Source of the DNA: Candidatus Bathyarchaeota archaeon
GTDB taxonomy: Archaea; Thermoproteota; Bathyarchaeia; Bathyarchaeales; Bathycorpusculaceae
DNA length: 64,000 nt
Direction: 5' to 3'
Assembly: GCA_026014665.1 (NCBI GenBank)
Contig: JAOZHX010000034.1
Span: 1 to 64,000, forward strand
A program made the position numbers and the translations under genes. The notes below the pieces were generated by a model. It had not been told where the DNA came from and did not search any database. It was given only the letters and a program-made list of their open reading frames with translations. Below are positions 30,949-64,000 of the stretch, one piece after another; within the stretch, counting starts at the first letter, position 1; every line of letters begins with the position of its first letter.

Positions 30949-31869
30949 TTGATAACTGCTTTAGCAGGCGGAGTTGGCGCTGCTCGGCTCCTAACCGGCA
31001 TGCTCAGACTCGTAAAGCAAGAGGAGCTTTCTGTTGTTGTTAACACAGGGGATGACATTGAACTGTTTGGTTTACACATCTCGCCTGACCTTGACATCGT
31101 TGCTTACACGTTAGCGGGCATTGTGGATGAAAAGAAGGGCTGGGGAATCAAAGGTGACAGTTTCCACTGCCTCGATATGTTCAGAAAATATGGGCAAGAC
31201 ACGTGGTTTTCTTTGGGCGATAAGGATTTAGCGACGCATATCTACCGGACTCACCGTTTAAGGCAGGGCAAAACTCTCACAGAGGTGACCCGTGAAATAT
31301 GCACATCGCTAGGGCTCAAGGTTAACGTTTTGCCGATGACTGATGATAGGTTTGAAACGCACGTTAGATTGAGAGAGGGTTCAGTGCATTTCGAGGAATA
31401 TTTCGTTAAGAGGCAATGTCAAGGTAATGTTTTAGGCGTCGAATTCGTCGGTTCAGCCACTGCGAAACCTTCACCAGAAGTCATGGACGCTATTTTGGAT
31501 GCGGAAGTGGTTGTTGTTTGCCCAAGCAATCCCATCGTGAGCATCGGCACAATACTCTCCGTGGCTGGAGTCAGGGATGCTTTGAGGCGTGCAAACGCAC
31601 GTGTGGTTGCAGTAAGCCCCATCGTTGCAGGTTTGCCTATTAAGGGTCCAGCGGATAAACTGATGCGTGGGTTGGGCTTGGAGGTTTCTGCCTTTGGAGT
31701 TGCTAAATTGTACTCTGATTTCCTTGATGTATTTGTGATTGATACCCTGGATGCCTCTGAAAAGGAACGAATTGAGAAACTGGGAATAAAAGTGAAAGTA
31801 ACCAACACTTTCATGAGAACGTTAAAGGATAAGGTTGCTTTGGCAAAAGCTGTTCTATCAGAACAATAA
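30949..31869 (+). CDS. cofD: 2-phospho-L-lactate transferase CofD (coenzyme F420 synthesis)
   Basis: 306 aa. ITALAGGVGAARLLTGML at the N-terminus, VNTGDDIELFGLHISPDLD, GWGIKGDSFHC and the CPSNPIVSIGTIL loop match CofD. It transfers the phospholactyl group to Fo to make F420-0. Its presence shows the organism makes F420, which supports reading the FrhB domain at 57.9 kb as F420-active. TTG 30949 has GGAG upstream. Confidence 0.95.
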   Translation: MITALAGGVGAARLLTGMLRLVKQEELSVVVNTGDDIELFGLHISPDLDIVAYTLAGIVDEKKGWGIKGDSFHCLDMFRKYGQDTWFSLGDKDLATHIYRTHRLRQGKTLTEVTREICTSLGLKVNVLPMTDDRFETHVRLREGSVHFEEYFVKRQCQGNVLGVEFVGSATAKPSPEVMDAILDAEVVVVCPSNPIVSIGTILSVAGVRDALRRANARVVAVSPIVAGLPIKGPADKLMRGLGLEVSAFGVAKLYSDFLDVFVIDTLDASEKERIEKLGIKVKVTNTFMRTLKDKVALAKAVLSEQ

Positions 31870-57935: not shown

Positions 57936-59390
57936 TTAGATTTTTGGGGTCAGTACGGGTGGAGGTTGCTGTACCTGAAGGTCTTTCAGGATTGGGGCAA
58001 AGTTTTTCTTTGCGCGAGACTTCTTTAGAGCTGATAGTTTGGCGATTTCTTCTTTGTTAACGTTGCCTCTTGTCAGGTCGATGTTTTCGGTTAGTTTTTT
58101 GCCTTTTTCTGAGCGCACGATCACGGTTGAGTAGCCATCTTCGCTTCCGACTGAACCGACTGAAACGTCGGCCAGTTTGGCGGTAAAATCATCGCAGTAA
58201 ACGCACCCGTTTTCCACTGCTTTTGTTAAGTCTCTAACGCTGGTTGAGTATTCTTTTCCATCAATCGTTACGATGTATTTCCCTTTATGGATCTGTGTTT
58301 TCTCGGCTTGGTCTAGGTCTATTCCCATTAGTTTTTTGGTTTCCACTTTCAACTTATCATAGTCAAACGATTCAAAGCAGAATAGTCCAATGATTGTAAG
58401 TTCAAGGTCAGGGAACTTTTCAAGCAGGGCTTCTTGAATCTTTCTTGCCGCTCGGACTTCGCAGGAGGTTCCTACCATGGCGATTTTCTTCTTTCCCTTG
58501 TTTAGTAATTCGCCTATCTTTGACATCATTTTGACTCGCAGATACTTTGTTTTCTTGGCTTTAAGTATGTCATCAACGCTTTCCGCTACAACCGCTTCGG
58601 CTCTATATCCTTCGACTCGTTGAACCACGATAGCTGCGTCGAACAAGCCTCTCTGCATCCCTGAAACTAGCAAGGCTGTAGCAACTCCGCCGTCTTGTCC
58701 GCCTATGGAGCTCTTGGCAGCAAATATATCATTGTAAACTCCGAGTTCTTCGTCTTTTATTCCATTGAGGAATCGCTGTTCTATTCTTTCCACGTCTTCG
58801 GGCAAGGTAGGATAATTGTTAATCCTTAGTTTCTTAGATTTTGTTGGGCAAACGATAGCGCAGGCACCGCATCCGATACAATCGTTTGAGAATTCGTGAT
58901 AGGGTGCGGTTACTTCTCTCTCAACCCCTCGCTTTGCAAAGTTGATAGCGGATACACCGATTTTTTCTTCGCATACCCTGCTGCATAAGCCGCAGAGAAT
59001 GCAATCTTCTTGTTCATCGCCTATCCAGAATCTTGTTTTTTCAACTCCGTATTCTCGTGCCATGTCCTGAAGTTTTGTAACGTTGGGGCATCGTGCCAAT
59101 AACAACTCGAGGAGCACTTTGCGGGTCTTTACAACCTTATCAGACTTTGTGTAGACAACGAGACCTTCTTCCACTGGATAGTTGCATGAAGTCACAATTC
59201 GTTTTCGTCCACGTTTATCGACGACTTCTACTGAACATATCCGGCAAGCGCCGAAGGGTTCTAAAGCACTAGAATAGCACAAGGTGGGTATGTTAATTCC
59301 CAATTTTTTAGCGGCGTCAAGAATTGTGGCTCCTTGGTTAGCCTTAACTTCGACGTCATCGATTTTCAGCGTTACTTCTTTTGCTTCCAT
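57936..59390 (-). CDS. HoxU/NuoG-N iron-sulfur protein fused to FrhB (F420 oxidoreductase)
   Basis: 484 aa with three parts. Residues 1-80: plant-type [2Fe-2S] ferredoxin (LCYSSALEPFGACRICSVEV and a later Cys in SCNYPV). Residues 125-190: two [4Fe-4S] motifs, CILCGLCSRVCEEK and CIGCGACAIVCPTK. Residues 225-460: an FrhB domain with GGQDGGVATALLVSGMQRGL, VGTSCEVRAARKIQ, IGLFCFESFDYDKLK and the GCVYCDDFTAKLADVSVGSV cluster site. The His-Cys3 cluster motif of NuoG is missing (LLLARCPN remains). It begins one base after the NuoF stop with GGAGGT inside nuoF. I infer F420H2 exchanging electrons with the NuoEF flavin unit. Confidence 0.88.
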   Translation of the reverse strand: MEAKEVTLKIDDVEVKANQGATILDAAKKLGINIPTLCYSSALEPFGACRICSVEVVDKRGRKRIVTSCNYPVEEGLVVYTKSDKVVKTRKVLLELLLARCPNVTKLQDMAREYGVEKTRFWIGDEQEDCILCGLCSRVCEEKIGVSAINFAKRGVEREVTAPYHEFSNDCIGCGACAIVCPTKSKKLRINNYPTLPEDVERIEQRFLNGIKDEELGVYNDIFAAKSSIGGQDGGVATALLVSGMQRGLFDAAIVVQRVEGYRAEAVVAESVDDILKAKKTKYLRVKMMSKIGELLNKGKKKIAMVGTSCEVRAARKIQEALLEKFPDLELTIIGLFCFESFDYDKLKVETKKLMGIDLDQAEKTQIHKGKYIVTIDGKEYSTSVRDLTKAVENGCVYCDDFTAKLADVSVGSVGSEDGYSTVIVRSEKGKKLTENIDLTRGNVNKEEIAKLSALKKSRAKKNFAPILKDLQVQQPPPVLTPKI

Positions 59391-59391
59391 T

Positions 59392-61314
59392 TTAGTTACC
59401 TCCAGTTTTCTTTATCCATCTCTGTTCCTCAGGAATAGGAGGCGGCACAGGCTCGCCTGATATTTTAGTCACAGCTCTAAATTTGGGTGGGCAAACATCA
59501 AAACAAGAACCGCATTTGATGCATTTGCTCTGGTCAATCAAATGAATCTTATTTAATTCTCCGTTAACTGCTCCGACTGGACAGTTTCGTGAGCAAAGCG
59601 TGCAAGCCCTGCATTTCGTTGGATCGATGTAGTAGGAAATTAAGCTTTTGCAGACCATCGCTGGGCATCTTTTTTCCTTGATGTGTGCTTCGTATTCGTC
59701 TCTGAAGTAACGCAGCGTAGTCAACATTGGATTAGCCGAAGTTTGACCCAGCGCACACAACGCGGCAGCAGCAGTCGTTTCACCTATTTCCTGAAGTTTC
59801 TCGATGTCTCCTTCTTTTCCGTTACCAGTAACTATACCGTCCAAAATTTTTCTAGCCTGTTTGAGCCCTTCGCGACATGGAACACATTTGCCGCATGATT
59901 CGTCACAAAGGAAATTAACGAAGTACCGGGCGACATCAACCATGCAGGTGTCCTCATCCATCACGATCATACCGCCAGAGCCCATAATCGACCCGAGTTT
60001 TGCTAATTCGTCAAAGTCAACGGGTGAATCTAGATATTGCTCTGGAATGACGCCGCCTGAGGGACCGCCTGTTTGAACAGCCTTGAATTTCTTTCCGTTA
60101 CGGATTCCGCCGCCGATCTTAAATATAATGTCTCTTAACGTCATCCCCATTGGAACTTCCACTAGACCAGTATTGTTCACCTTGCCTGCTAACGCAAATA
60201 TTTTTGTGCCTTTGCTACCCGCTGTTCCTATGGATGTGAACCAATCAGCCCCATTGTTAATTATAAGAGGAACATTTGCCCAAGTTTCGACGTTGTTCAA
60301 CGCACTCGGTTTATCCCAAACACCTTTTTCAGAAGTGTGGACATACTTTGGTCGTGGCTCGCCAACCTTTCCTTCTATAGCTGTCATGAGAGCGCTTGAT
60401 TCCCCTGAGACAAAAGCGCCAGCGCCTCGATGGATCTTTACCTTGAAATCAAAGCCGGATCCCAAAATGTTGTTGCCTAACAAGCCATGCGCCGTTGCCG
60501 AATCGATGGCGGCTTGCATGTTCTCGACTGCGAGAGGATATTCTTGCCTCACGTAGACAAAGCCTTCATGCGAACCGATGGCATAAGCTCCTATTATGAG
60601 CCCTTCAAGAATGCTGTGCGGATTGCCCTCCATTAACGCTCGATTCATAAAGGCGCCTGGGTCTCCTTCGTCGCAGTTAACTATGACATATTTGGGTTCG
60701 CCGGGTGCCTTGCGGGTAGATTCCCATTTCCGAAAAGTGGGGAAGCCGCCTCCGCCTCTTCCACGCAAGTTGGCTTTTCTAATTTCGTCAAGCACTTGTT
60801 CTGGCGCCATGCTGGAAAGAACCTTTGCTAAGGCTGAGTAGCCATTTAATGCTATGTAATCTTCAAGGCTTTTAGGGTCAACTCTGGAATTGTTATCCAT
60901 CAGAATTCGGTTTTGGTACTTGTAGAAGGGTATTTCTGCCAGGTTTCTTGCTGTCTCTCCAGAAACAGGATCGGTATAGAGCAGTCGCTCAACAATTTCT
61001 TTTTTGAGAAGAGTTTTTGAAACGATTTCAGGTACATCCGTCGCTTTTACCCTGAAATAATAGATTTCCTCAGGATACACAACGACTCGAGGGCCTTTTT
61101 CACAAAAGCCGATGCAGCCGGTTTCTTTAATTTCCACCTCGTTTTCTAAACCATGCTTTTTAAGTTCTTCCTTGAAGGCTTTGATGACATCTTTGACGCC
61201 GAGAGCTTCGCAACCGGTGCTTATGCACATTGCTATAGCTGGTTTTTTGGGATTCTTTTTTGCAAGGATATCTTTTCTGAGTTTTTCTAAATCAGCCGAA
61301 GATTCTAAACGCAA
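59392..61314 (-). CDS. NuoF/HydB-like flavoprotein with extra ferredoxin domains
   Basis: About 640 aa. Residues 25-100: thioredoxin-like [2Fe-2S] domain (CISTGCEALG, GCIGFCEKGP). Residues 200-500: FMN/NADH fold with LRGRGGGGFPTFRKWE, NCDEGDPGAFMNRALMEG and AGAFVSGESSALMTAIEG. Then the [4Fe-4S] site SCGKCVPCREG and a C-terminal 2x[4Fe-4S] ferredoxin (CRACTLCSRNCP, CIKCGSCFDVCP). The order is that of HydB/HndC subunits. GGGAGTGA sits about eight bases before TTG 61314, so I use it; GTG 61323 is also possible. The 61449 extension lies inside nuoE. Confidence 0.93.
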   Translation of the reverse strand: MRLESSADLEKLRKDILAKKNPKKPAIAMCISTGCEALGVKDVIKAFKEELKKHGLENEVEIKETGCIGFCEKGPRVVVYPEEIYYFRVKATDVPEIVSKTLLKKEIVERLLYTDPVSGETARNLAEIPFYKYQNRILMDNNSRVDPKSLEDYIALNGYSALAKVLSSMAPEQVLDEIRKANLRGRGGGGFPTFRKWESTRKAPGEPKYVIVNCDEGDPGAFMNRALMEGNPHSILEGLIIGAYAIGSHEGFVYVRQEYPLAVENMQAAIDSATAHGLLGNNILGSGFDFKVKIHRGAGAFVSGESSALMTAIEGKVGEPRPKYVHTSEKGVWDKPSALNNVETWANVPLIINNGADWFTSIGTAGSKGTKIFALAGKVNNTGLVEVPMGMTLRDIIFKIGGGIRNGKKFKAVQTGGPSGGVIPEQYLDSPVDFDELAKLGSIMGSGGMIVMDEDTCMVDVARYFVNFLCDESCGKCVPCREGLKQARKILDGIVTGNGKEGDIEKLQEIGETTAAAALCALGQTSANPMLTTLRYFRDEYEAHIKEKRCPAMVCKSLISYYIDPTKCRACTLCSRNCPVGAVNGELNKIHLIDQSKCIKCGSCFDVCPPKFRAVTKISGEPVPPPIPEEQRWIKKTGGN

Positions 61315-61330
61315 ATTTTTCACTCCCTGG

Positions 61331-61786
61331 TTAGGTGTAGCTAGCAAGTAGCTTCCCCACGGTTGTGGTTGTTTGCTTTCCAAAATATTGCCCATCAATT
61401 TCCACGACTGGACCAAGAGCACAACAGCCCAGACAGTTAACGGTTTCAATCGTGAACTTTCCGTCGGTAGTTGTCTCGCCCGCTCTGACGCCTAAGGTTC
61501 GTTCTACTGAATCTAAAATTCGTGGTCCACCGCGCACATAACATGCTGTTCCAGCGCAAACTCTGACAACATGCCGACCTCGGGGTTTAAGACTCAGCGC
61601 CGTGTAAAAGCTTGCTACACGGTAAATTTCGCTTACTGGAATTTTGAGCCTTTTATTTATTCGCATGATTGCTTCTGGCGGGATCCAGTTCAACTCTTTC
61701 TGAATATCCAATAATAGCTGGATTAGAACTCCGGTCTCACATTCGTACTTATCAATAATCTTGTCTATTCTGTCAATAGAGCTCAT
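61331..61786 (-). CDS. NuoE-like [2Fe-2S] subunit
   Basis: 151 aa. SSIDRIDKIIDKYECETGVL and LNWIPPEAIMRINKRLKIPV form the helical N-domain; the thioredoxin-like domain has the cluster ligands in RVCAGTACYVRGG and NCLGCCALGPVVEIDG (C-x4-C and C-x3-C). It passes electrons to NuoF. ATG 61786 is used; the upstream frame to 61825 is short and unlikely. Opens the operon nuoE-nuoF-frhB fusion. Confidence 0.93.
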   Translation of the reverse strand: MSSIDRIDKIIDKYECETGVLIQLLLDIQKELNWIPPEAIMRINKRLKIPVSEIYRVASFYTALSLKPRGRHVVRVCAGTACYVRGGPRILDSVERTLGVRAGETTTDGKFTIETVNCLGCCALGPVVEIDGQYFGKQTTTTVGKLLASYT

Positions 61787-61930: not shown

Positions 61931-62944
61931 TTGGAAAGAAGAATTATGTCTTTAGGCAGATCATCCTTGGTTATTTCTCTGCCTAAAAATTGGCTACAAT
62001 TGACCGAATTAAACAAAGGCGATGTCGTTTCATTTGCCATTCAACGTGATCGTTCTTTAGTTGTCTATCCAGGTTCAAGGAAAAAGTCAGATAATAAGGA
62101 AATCACCATCCACGTTGCGCAAAATGATGAGCAAGCTCTGATTTCAAGGCGAATAGTCGGGTGCTATTTGAACGGTTACAGCGGGATAAGGCTCATCTCT
62201 CAAAACATCTTCTCCATGCAACAAAGAAAGTGGATCAGAAACATAGCTGGAGTACTGTACATGAGAATCATGGAATCTGACGCAAAATCCATCTACATGC
62301 AGGCGCTTATAGATGAATCCAAAGCATCGCTTGAACAAGCCATCGAAAGAATGCGCTTGATCTCCCTGTCGATGTGTGAAGATGCATTCACAGCCTTAAA
62401 GAACAACAACATCGACTTGGCGAAATCAGTCTTCTCCATGGTTGCCGATGCGGATCACTTCACCTTTTTTATCCTACGATTACTTCGAAACGCCGCACAA
62501 AACTCAGTTCTTGCAAACGAACTCCATGTAGACCCATTAGATTGCATGGACCATGAAACCCTGGTCGACTCCATGGAATACGCCGCTCACAGCGCAGCAG
62601 ACCTGGCAAGGCAAATAACATTACAGGGAGAAGAAGAAAAAATTCCAAACGAAATTTGCGAACTATTGAGTACAGCGGGAGCATTAGCAGTTGACATGTA
62701 TACGAAAGCTATCAATACATTCTTTTCTAAAGATGATCAAACAGCCGTTGAAATCTTAAAAAACCAGCAGAAAATTGAGGCGCTCGACGCAGATATAGCT
62801 TTACAAGCGTTCACAATTAAGCAGAAAAACGCTCGATTAGCAAGAATGATATGTTCGATACGTGAAAATATAAAAAAAATAGCGGATAGCGCGGCTGATA
62901 TCGCGAAGATTTCGATAAACCGCGCCTTTAAGGCTTCTCATTAG
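61931..62944 (+). CDS. AbrB-PhoU transcriptional/phosphate regulator
   Basis: 337 aa. Residues 1-45 are a SpoVT/AbrB swapped-hairpin (RRIMSLGRSSLVISLPKNWL, LNKGDVVSFAIQRDRSLVVY). The rest is two PhoU-type three-helix bundles with E/D-rich helices (HSAADLARQITLQGEEEKIP). TTG 61931 gives MERRIMSLGRSS, matching relatives, and GGGG lies nine bases before; TTG 61916 is the alternative. No phosphate transporter is near. Divergent from nuoE and convergent with the dehydrogenase (17-base overlap), so it may regulate the nuoE operon. Confidence 0.85.
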   Translation: MERRIMSLGRSSLVISLPKNWLQLTELNKGDVVSFAIQRDRSLVVYPGSRKKSDNKEITIHVAQNDEQALISRRIVGCYLNGYSGIRLISQNIFSMQQRKWIRNIAGVLYMRIMESDAKSIYMQALIDESKASLEQAIERMRLISLSMCEDAFTALKNNNIDLAKSVFSMVADADHFTFFILRLLRNAAQNSVLANELHVDPLDCMDHETLVDSMEYAAHSAADLARQITLQGEEEKIPNEICELLSTAGALAVDMYTKAINTFFSKDDQTAVEILKNQQKIEALDADIALQAFTIKQKNARLARMICSIRENIKKIADSAADIAKISINRAFKASH

Positions 62945-63977
62945 AACCTTTGGAAGCGTAGTTTAAGGTCAAAGCCATTTTGGCGGGAAAGAGGTCTTTC
63001 TCTAGCAGTTTTCGGGCAAGCGGCAACGCGACATTGTAGTTGTAAATGTCCTTGCCAGAGCTTTTTGCTTCACGGAGGATTTCCTTTTCCAGTTTATGCT
63101 TTAATTCGCCAACGGCAAGTGCACCGATGGTGAAGATTCCGGGTAGCATTTCTCTCATGTCATCTTTTTGATCGATTCCTTCGACGCCTAGGGGTGGAAC
63201 AGCGTTTATGTCAAGAATCACTTTCATATGTTTGACTTCGTCGAGCATGCTTTTGTCTATGATTCTAACTCCCCTTATGCCCGCACACATGATTACGTCT
63301 GCTTTTTTGAGGACTTCTATTTTGGTTGCTGCGTTGGGAGCAAAGATACCTTGCACTTGCACTCCATGATCCTTGGCGAGAAGTTTTGCGATTCCTTCGA
63401 CGTGTTCTTTCCCATCGACTCGTTTAGGGTTTAAGCTGACAATCATGACTGGGCAGCCCATCTTAGCTAAGAGGACGGCTGCGATTTGTCCGACTGCTCC
63501 TGTTCCCATGATGGCGCAGGTTTTATCTTTCAATTCTCCAAGCTTGTTGGTTAAAAGTGCATTCTCAGCTTTGGCAACCATGGCAGCGGCAGTTGTGTAG
63601 GCTCCTGCTGGGTCAATAATTATATTCCCCTTAAACGGCGGGAACATGACGTTCTTCATGGCTTCTAAGACTTCCTCTGCTCTTTCAGCGTTTTTCCCTC
63701 CGATCATGAAGACTGTGTTTTTGGCGCCTTTTGGTCCTCTGGAAAGTAACGCGTCCAATGCCACTGTTTTGCTGTCTTCAGCCGTAACGTTTTCGTACGG
63801 AATGACGGCGTCATAGCCTGCGTCGTAGGCCATGCAAATGTCGAAGGGGCTGGCTTTTGTGTCTGTATCTAGGTAGAACAGCAAGTACGGCGGGTTTTCC
63901 CCTGCTTTGCCTATGACAGGTTTAACTTGAACCTGGATGGATTGTAACCAGTTATTTAGCTCAGATGCCGATGGCAC
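62928..63977 (-). CDS. mtdB: Methylene-tetrahydromethanopterin dehydrogenase (MtdA/MtdB type), start open to window edge
   Basis: 349 aa as read. YLDTDTKASPFDICMAYDAG, VIPYENVTAED, LLSRGPKGAKNTVFMIGGKN and VMFPPFKGNIIIDPAGAYTT are the N-terminal H4MPT-binding domain; GTGAVGQIAAVLLAKMG is the nucleotide-binding Rossmann loop. The fold belongs to NAD(P)-dependent dehydrogenases, not the F420-dependent Mtd. It oxidises methylene-H4MPT to methenyl-H4MPT. GTG 63977 is the last start in the window, but the frame runs open to 64000, so the true start may lie beyond. Confidence 0.88.
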   Translation of the reverse strand: MPSASELNNWLQSIQVQVKPVIGKAGENPPYLLFYLDTDTKASPFDICMAYDAGYDAVIPYENVTAEDSKTVALDALLSRGPKGAKNTVFMIGGKNAERAEEVLEAMKNVMFPPFKGNIIIDPAGAYTTAAAMVAKAENALLTNKLGELKDKTCAIMGTGAVGQIAAVLLAKMGCPVMIVSLNPKRVDGKEHVEGIAKLLAKDHGVQVQGIFAPNAATKIEVLKKADVIMCAGIRGVRIIDKSMLDEVKHMKVILDINAVPPLGVEGIDQKDDMREMLPGIFTIGALAVGELKHKLEKEILREAKSSGKDIYNYNVALPLARKLLEKDLFPAKMALTLNYASKGSNEKP

Positions 63978-64000
63978 TTCAGCAGTCGCTGATATGACTT

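Follow-up and report, generated by a model that had tools for sequence, protein, structure and literature searches.

The 64,000-nucleotide stretch analysed here (the window) represents positions 1 to 64,000 of contig JAOZHX010000034.1 in assembly GCA_026014665.1 of an uncultured Candidatus Bathyarchaeota archaeon (2.37 Mb, 36 contigs, 94% complete). On its minus strand, from 61786 to 57936, are found three genes, bfuC, bfuB and bfuA, whose products probably constitute the three subunits of an F420-Bfu, a soluble oxidoreductase that couples coenzyme F420(H2), NAD(H) and ferredoxin by flavin-based bifurcation. The assignment is based on the observed gene order and linkage, domains, cofactor ligands, predicted fold, relatives and genomic context; the reaction, the use of NAD rather than NADP, the solubility and the physiological role are what we infer.

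The gene bfuC (61331..61786, minus strand) encodes a NuoE/HydC-like BfuC of 151 amino acids (aa) from an ATG at 61786 (PF01257, E 4.8e-48). It is followed after 7 nt by bfuB (59392..61323, minus strand), encoding a HydB-like NuoF, BfuB, of 643 aa from a GTG at 61323, with the flavin mononucleotide (FMN)/NAD site and the clusters B1-B5. After 1 further nt, bfuA (57936..59390, minus strand) encodes a protein of 484 aa in which a HoxU-like iron-sulphur domain (residues 1-190; 58821..59390, minus strand) is fused to an FrhB flavoprotein domain (residues 206-484; 57936..58775, minus strand; PF04422, PF04432) with sites for flavin adenine dinucleotide (FAD), a [4Fe-4S] cluster and F420. The alternative bfuB start that was listed, a TTG at 61449 giving an open reading frame (ORF) of 685 aa, overlaps bfuC; the 643 aa obtained from the GTG lie in the size range of 629-672 aa seen among F420-Bfu relatives that are full-length and unfused. 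Residues are numbered by the 164-aa ORF for BfuC and by the 685-aa ORF for BfuB.

In the Pfam scan BfuB matches PF01512, PF10531 (SLBB), PF10589, part of PF01257 and PF13237/PF00037 (Fer4), its extras being a 2Fe-2S thioredoxin-like domain at the N-terminus and a two-cluster ferredoxin domain at the C-terminus. The BfuB domains of the Bfu family (51K FMN, SLBB, NADH 4Fe-4S and 4Fe-4S ferredoxin) are all present, as checked here with Pfam models in place of the InterPro entries by which the family is defined in the available text of PMC9304861. The order in BfuA is Fer2_4, two 4Fe-4S motifs, PF04422 (6.6e-14) and PF04432 (6.3e-37). These domains and coordinates confirm the layout described in an earlier note on this DNA, made from the sequence alone (NuoE, a HydB-like NuoF with additional ferredoxins and a HoxU/FrhB fusion), and its view that the fusion stands in for a separate catalytic subunit holds as well. 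The fusion recurs in 22 other loci (21 whole, 1 cut by a contig end) and is therefore not an assembly artefact or a chance join. A glutamate-synthase-like or SfnAB-like enzyme, named in the earlier note as an outcome that would refute its F420 idea, was discarded, no such domain appearing in the Pfam lists of BfuA, BfuB and BfuC; among the NCBIfam matches listed, that of PRK12814 to BfuA spans only residues 4-100, which is the 2Fe-2S part.

The three best solved relatives of BfuB, 7t2r_B (1.2e-237), 9mqx_B (9.2e-230) and 8a6t_B, are each the B subunit of an enzyme whose title or name describes it as electron-bifurcating. Ligands were mapped by alignment to 7t2r_B, in which no gap occurs between residue 72 and the final cysteines of the clusters. 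Cluster B1 has Cys519/522/525/565, B2 has four ligands present (Cys502, His589, Cys595, Cys600), B3/B4 have Cys613/616/619/623 and 643/646/649/653, and B5 has Cys75/80/112/116. His589, the equivalent of A. mobile H525, and all cysteines of B1-B4 are invariant in 25/25 BfuB rows (the window, 21 fused loci, L074, L076 and L132), and the first B5 cysteine is replaced by Ser in L058, L062, L074 and L132. The ligands of cluster C1 in BfuC (Cys90, 95, 131 and 135) are kept in all 23 aligned BfuC. Judged by these alignments, both the cluster ligands and the B2 histidine by which bifurcating Bfu enzymes are recognised are present in the BfuBC core.

The HoxU part of BfuA has the ligands of the [2Fe-2S] cluster A1 (Cys38/49/52/69) and of two [4Fe-4S] clusters (Cys130/133/136/140 and 171/174/177/181), kept in 23/23 fused BfuA with the exception of Cys38 (22/23, absent in the truncated L072). 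No NADH-G_4Fe-4S_3 match, indicative of an A3 (His-Cys) domain, was obtained in the Pfam scan, and the clusters fit A1, A2 and A4 only, the naming of the two [4Fe-4S] clusters as A2/A4 being by analogy. All FrhB-family motifs are found in the C-terminal domain: GQDGG, the FAD pyrophosphate loop (residues 231-235; 58686..58700, minus strand), the four cluster cysteines Cys310/338/396/399, IHKGK, a loop beside the F420 site corresponding to IGKGK in Frh (residues 367-371; 58278..58292, minus strand), and DVSVG (residues 408-412). QDGG is kept in 20 of the 23 fused BfuA rows. For Frh, the available parts of PMC3930138 and PMC3591093 describe a QDGG loop holding the FAD pyrophosphate, a cluster held by four cysteines and a substrate channel lined by conserved residues. 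PMC3591093 (in part) places the GKGK turn, and also an S-V loop, beside F420, and the F420 density behind the GKGK placement was later attributed to noise by the same group (PMC3930138, in part).

By sequence, the solved chains nearest to the FrhB domain are those of Fsr-type enzymes, the F420-reducing carbon monoxide dehydrogenase (CODH) subunit 8riu_B and Frh. An AlphaFold model of BfuA (m0b8eb94c36ab; 23 sequences, pLDDT 87, pTM 0.84) matched the flavin subunits of Frh, Fsr and F420-CODH in Foldseek, with a root-mean-square deviation (rmsd) of 2.5 and a TM by target length of 0.83 to Frh 9r51_B. Its HoxU part matched 9mqx_A (247 aa) with rmsd 2.0, TM by target length 0.67 and 40% identity over the aligned part. 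On the strength of these motifs and fold matches the domain is predicted to hold a FAD/F420 pocket, the point on which the earlier note had made its F420 idea depend: the fold matches, and both the FAD and the F420 loops are present.

This type of enzyme has been predicted before. In the text of Schut et al. 2022 available to us (PMC9304861), F420-Bfu is a Type 1 BfuABC with BfuB in clade 45 and clusters A1, A2 and A4. The prediction is based on 2 sequences, and the enzyme is described as "not found in bacteria", present in some Methanosaetaceae and uncharacterised, with F420 reduction for biosynthesis as its proposed role. The window enzyme agrees in its BfuBC core with B1-B5 and C1 and in a BfuA that has the clusters A1, A2 and A4 and ends in an F420/FAD domain. 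The order bfuB-bfuA is shared by the Methanotrichaceae loci L068, L070, L071, L073 and L097, bfuC being called before it in four, while the gene caller gave no bfuC in L097. The type as found here differs from the published one in its occurrence in Bathyarchaeia, in its context of C1-pathway and CODH/acetyl-CoA synthase (ACS) genes, in the adjoining Fno (F420:NADP oxidoreductase, npdG/fno) of some loci and in the existence of CODH-fused forms. No later work on F420-Bfu and no characterisation was found among the matches listed in the open-access literature; of 20 listed out of 104 in one search, PMC9304861 alone contains the term F420-Bfu. The earlier note, which knew of no characterised enzyme with this layout, overstated the point: the layout had been predicted in 2022 (PMC9304861, in part), though no characterised example was found among these matches.

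By analogy with other Bfu enzymes, the stoichiometry would be 2 F420H2 + NAD+ + 2 Fd(ox) <=> 2 F420 + NADH + 2 Fd(red), Fd being ferredoxin. The FrhB-domain FAD would take up a hydride from F420H2, and single electrons would then travel from the FrhB [4Fe-4S] cluster over the three HoxU-part clusters, two [4Fe-4S] and one [2Fe-2S], until they reach the FMN in BfuB. At this FMN BfuBC would split them, one pair going to NAD+ and one pair via B2-B3-B4 to ferredoxin. Near equilibrium the reaction could be reversed, NADH and reduced ferredoxin giving F420H2. It fits the potentials in the available text of Schut et al. (PMC9304861), which are about -280 mV for NADH and about -500 mV for ferredoxin in cell conditions, and -360 mV for F420 as standard value. 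Physiologically the enzyme may connect, by exchange, the F420 pool in the tetrahydromethanopterin (H4MPT) branch with the NADH and ferredoxin of the remaining Wood-Ljungdahl pathway: during oxidation of methyl groups it would convert F420H2 to NADH and to reduced ferredoxin, which CODH requires, and in acetogenesis it could supply F420H2. The exchange between F420, NAD(P)H and ferredoxin by flavin-based bifurcation that the earlier note had suggested is in line with this prediction.

Several findings weigh against an F420-Bfu. No measured activity of any such enzyme was found in the open-access literature. The full-length form is patchy, being present in 15/90 genomes of the host's family and 2/32 in its genus. 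Coupling by gene content to the F420-dependent methylene-H4MPT dehydrogenase (Mtd) was rejected, since no association was seen (4/15 genomes with F420-Bfu against 19/75 without). In the core, the fifth B2 position is occupied in the alignment to 7t2r_B by Val540, with Thr541 adjoining, where Cys476 or Thr is expected; it is Val or Ile in 23/25 BfuB rows and Thr in 2. Ala266 and Met268 of the window match A202 and M204, but these positions vary in 4/24 and 3/24 of the rows reaching them, and the F182 position is not Phe: a simple offset gives Arg246, with the numbering of F182 unsure, and opposite the A. mobile Phe of this region the window BfuB has a Ser. Because this Phe is missing, our confidence in an F420-Bfu was lowered slightly. 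In the available text of PMC9304861, F182, A202 and M204 near the FMN are termed conserved in Bfu and not defining, and the fifth B2 ligand is likewise not a defining feature, Thr replacing Cys in about two thirds of sequences. The choice between NAD and NADP is not settled by the GESS motif of BfuB. A preference for NADPH was considered from this motif, several bifurcating relatives having GEET, and was dropped, as 9mqx_B, titled "with NADH", also has GESS and 8a6t_B has GEST. The last point concerns the supply of F420, as cofG and cofH (FO synthase) were not found in the 94% complete host genome at E<=1e-20, and at this threshold each is present in 1/90 family genomes, the same one (G317).

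The Val at one B2 ligand position and the missing Phe listed as conserved would suit a non-bifurcating NAD(P)H:F420 oxidoreductase, in which the NuoEF part merely passes electrons and ferredoxin is not a substrate. The potentials of F420 and NADH are close, and NuoEF-type diaphorases without bifurcation exist (PMC9304861, in part). Such non-bifurcating homologues are described in the available text of the same paper as being without B2-B5 and without the B2 histidine. The window BfuB is unlike the NuoEFG/HoxEFU diaphorases in having B3-B5, four B2 ligands and the histidine; the histidine and the B1-B4 cysteines are constant in 25/25 rows, and two ferredoxin-type clusters would be without evident use if no ferredoxin took part. 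We regard a non-bifurcating enzyme as unlikely.

The failure to find cofG and cofH in the host and in 89/90 family genomes would favour, instead of an F420-Bfu, an FrhB domain that has departed from F420 and acts as an FAD or Fe-S bridge to CODH/ACS or soluble ferredoxin, F420 not being a substrate in the host. The same fold is found in the chlorophyll reductase HCAR (5dqr), which is not known to use F420, and in the loci L066, L067 and L069 the FAD loop has decayed with retention of the cluster cysteines. In the window, on the other side, both the FAD and the F420 loops are intact, an F420-specific Mtd is encoded upstream, and cofD and cofE are present. Neighbours could also supply F420: an enriched Bathyarchaeon is reported, in the part of PMC10989822 available, to lack F420 synthesis and possibly to depend on co-cultured bacteria. 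We consider a domain that has left F420 slightly less probable again than a non-bifurcating enzyme.

As for the supply itself, cofD (30949..31869, plus strand), for a late step of F420 synthesis, is a real gene (TIGR01819, 356.9 bits against a cut-off of 257.45). At E<=0.001 the host has a single cofH-like match of 22.9 bits, against a cut-off of 374.1. With cofG and cofH not found, CofD alone does not show F420 production; the gene reported at 30.9 kb in the earlier note stands, and the conclusion of F420 production drawn from it there does not follow. There are three possibilities: uptake of F420 or FO, synthesis of FO by enzymes missed by these models, or use of another deazaflavin. Termite-gut Bathyarchaeia phylotypes are said, in the accessible text of PMC7886697, to encode F420-synthesis enzymes, which that text does not name. 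F420 as the substrate of the F420-Bfu is well supported by structure and context and not by supply, and there is a riddle in F420 enzymes being present where the known F420-chromophore genes were not found.

F420-Bfu occurs in Bathyarchaeia, beyond one methanogen family. In the genome scan, covering the best 80 of 357 confirmed loci, the FrhB part was matched in 22/80: 16 from Bathyarchaeota, 5 from Methanotrichaceae and 1 on a truncated Euryarchaeota contig (L072) with a long-branched FrhB that falls elsewhere in the tree. At least 5 full-length matches, the host included, were obtained in 300 genomes sampled across the phylum, and all those listed are in the host's family. In quick trees, with support from the Shimodaira-Hasegawa-like approximate likelihood ratio test (SH-aLRT) only, which applies to all values given here, the BfuB of Methanotrichaceae and Bathyarchaeial F420-Bfu fall in one 26-row set (99) with inner order unresolved. 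This set also includes the Chloroflexota rows L076 and L080 and L021 of the host's class. A Methanophagales contig of the anaerobic methanotrophic (ANME) group ANME-1 (L074, 4006 bases) carries bfuC and bfuB and then breaks off at its end within bfuA, whose first part shares 76% identity with that of the window. As its BfuB groups with two Bathyarchaeial rows (100), transfer and mis-binning are both possible. In Dehalococcoidia (L075:291-2075, L076:9995-11770) close BfuA relatives have about 400 aa replacing FrhB, of which Pfam names only a C-terminal ferredoxin.

The 16 Bathyarchaeial loci differ in their relation to the CODH/ACS genes. Eight are without a cdh gene in the flanks covered, some of which reach only 1-3 kb. 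In L055 and L060 bfuCBA precedes cooC-cdhA on the same strand, and L055 has a separate cdhB gene at the position of the epsilon fusion seen elsewhere. In the remaining six (L063-L067 and L069) bfuA-bfuC-bfuB lie between cdhA and cdhC, and their BfuB, 813-823 aa in length, has the CODH epsilon subunit fused directly behind the ferredoxin clusters. The epsilon part is present in all six (blastp, 41-56% to a CdhB probe), and PF02552 was matched in both fused BfuB tested (L067, as L039, and L063). L041 likewise has BfuABC in a CODH/ACS operon with BfuB fused to CODH epsilon. More widely, cdhC lies within 10 kb in 9/15 family genomes with the full-length fusion, related genomes not being independent. 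That the host enzyme is itself also a subunit of a larger CODH/ACS assembly, passing low-potential electrons directly and not via ferredoxin, is suggested by the epsilon fusion right behind the ferredoxin-type clusters in 6/16 Bathyarchaeial loci, by the operon before cooC-cdhA in two others and by the FrhB-like zeta subunit at the alpha/epsilon junction of a solved F420-reducing CODH (PMC11493965, in part), but it is very improbable, as host bfuCBA lie on contig C2 and the sole cdhC found on C15, and Pfam gives no epsilon domain in the window BfuB.

The six epsilon-fused BfuB and that of L041 form one clade (100) nested in the Bathyarchaeial F420-Bfu. Within it L063-L065 retain QDGG, the KGK loop being changed in L064. 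L066, L067 and L069 have lost QDGG and altered the KGK and DVSVG loops with all four cluster cysteines kept, and QDGG is lost in L041 as well; the PF04422 match is gone in L067 and present in L065. The four that lost QDGG form one clade (BfuB 99, FrhB 100). From the nesting of the BfuB clade we read the order as free form, CODH-linked form and loss of the F420 site. By analogy with the FrhB-type subunit at the alpha/epsilon junction of the solved CODH (PMC11493965, in part), a contact between F420-Bfu and CODH is plausible. A tentative joint reading, which we hold rather less probable than its opposite, is that CODH/ACS captured an F420-Bfu, as reflected in the genes between cdhA and cdhC and in the epsilon-BfuB fusion, that low-potential electrons from the bifurcation of F420H2 may enter CODH for CO2 reduction, or leave it, without free ferredoxin, and that the F420 site has since decayed in one sublineage, the window enzyme representing the free starting form. 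If so, the series would show a bifurcating core plugged into carbon fixation whose third substrate was then changed, and the decay of the F420 site would yield a new kind of CO/acetyl-CoA/NAD enzyme.

The C1 dehydrogenase that the earlier note placed next to the operon is indeed found. At 62928..63998, minus strand (PF09176, 4.4e-24), the window contains the C-terminal part of a methylene-H4MPT dehydrogenase of the NAD(P) type; its gene, of 573 aa, crosses the window end, and the next gene beyond is the F420-dependent Mtd (PF01993, 1.5e-119), which is also encoded on the minus strand and lies 5.4 kb upstream of bfuA. Between these two genes and bfuC is a PhoU-like gene in opposite orientation. 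The N-terminal part of about 215 aa of the 573-aa protein is without a Pfam name. The two neighbours (62928-63998 with L005:2-649 and L005:769-1644, minus strand) represent two enzymes with different carriers for one step; among the 23 family genomes that have F420-Mtd, 21 show them, by coordinates, no more than 2 kb apart. F420-Mtd is physically linked to F420-Bfu in three of the four genomes having both (G000, G196 and G329; not G358).

Fno is encoded within 2.7 kb of bfuA in 4/5 Methanotrichaceae and 2/16 Bathyarchaeial loci, some loci reaching only 1-3 kb per side. It scores over the cut-off in 3/90 family genomes (2 more below), and in 2 of these 3 it lies beside F420-Bfu; these two genomes are very probably those of L055 and L060. 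That Bfu replaces Fno as a missing function was not supported, Fno being rare and adjoining Bfu in 2 of the 3 genomes over the cut-off.

Among the enzymes known, the electron-bifurcating W aldehyde oxidoreductase Wor-Bfu (9mqx, type by title) resembles the window enzyme in the structure of the HoxU part, as second-best match of BfuB and in GESS at the NAD site; it differs in having an aldehyde as third substrate via extra subunits and a chain A of 247 aa without FrhB. The bifurcating hydrogenases HydABC/HydABCSL (7t2r, 8a6t, 7p5h) are alike in BfuB and in the N-terminal portion of subunit A and have an H cluster or NiFe subunits where the window has FrhB. The F420-reducing CODH of Ca. Ethanoperedens (8riu, PMC11493965) shares a flavin subunit of FrhB type which reduces F420 and carries a ferredoxin domain of its own, whereas the available part of that paper describes no BfuBC core or NAD(H). 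In the accessible text of Chadwick et al. 2022 (PMC9012536), the ANME clusters FrhB8 "NuoF-Trx" and FrhB7 "CODH" have FrhB near NuoF/thioredoxin or CODH alpha/epsilon; these are gene clusters of FrhB paralogues, and no HoxU-FrhB or BfuB-epsilon fusion is described there. The bacterial Codh-Bfu belongs to Firmicutes and clade 49 (PMC9304861, in part), the Bathyarchaeial CODH-fused form being of another lineage.

A real enzyme of the predicted kind, apparently still uncharacterised, is present in a new host group with an evolutionary sequel in relatives, which extends the predicted type from one methanogen family to the class Bathyarchaeia. This class is described as often highly abundant in anoxic submarine sediments (PMC8407382, in part). 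In termite-gut Bathyarchaeia the source of F420H2 for the methylene-H4MPT reductase was unclear and FrhB was found without hydrogenase subunits, according to the available text of Loh et al. 2021 (PMC7886697); FrhB working with HdrABC was suggested there and in the 2023 paper on a user of lignin-derived aromatics (PMC10989822, in part). A complete F420-Bfu is a testable alternative for part of the class, by which F420H2 would be exchanged reversibly with NADH and reduced ferredoxin.

The host and its relatives encode further FrhB and NuoEF proteins. On host contig C15 (L004:9656-11782, minus strand) a 708-aa protein combines a membrane domain of the RnfD/NqrB type with a two-cluster ferredoxin and with an FrhB domain 64% identical to that of the window. 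It is found also at L047:9371-11020, cut by the contig end, and, as judged from frame length and match range, on G329:C24 and G317:C2. It is possibly a membrane-bound F420H2 oxidoreductase. A normal Rnf complex behind it was dismissed, no RnfA/RnfE (PF02508) being found in the host genome. A 218-aa ORF without Pfam match adjoins the fusion. Host contig C13 carries another NuoE-NuoF-HoxU set (L052:5823-10631, minus strand), accompanied by the small and large subunits of a NiFe hydrogenase, and in G066 (L043) and G190 (L040) a stand-alone FrhB of the same clade as the window FrhB comes directly after such a NiFe-linked set. On host contig C13 is also found a 506-aa protein (L006:4994-6511, minus strand) composed of a ferredoxin motif, FrhB and two CBS domains.

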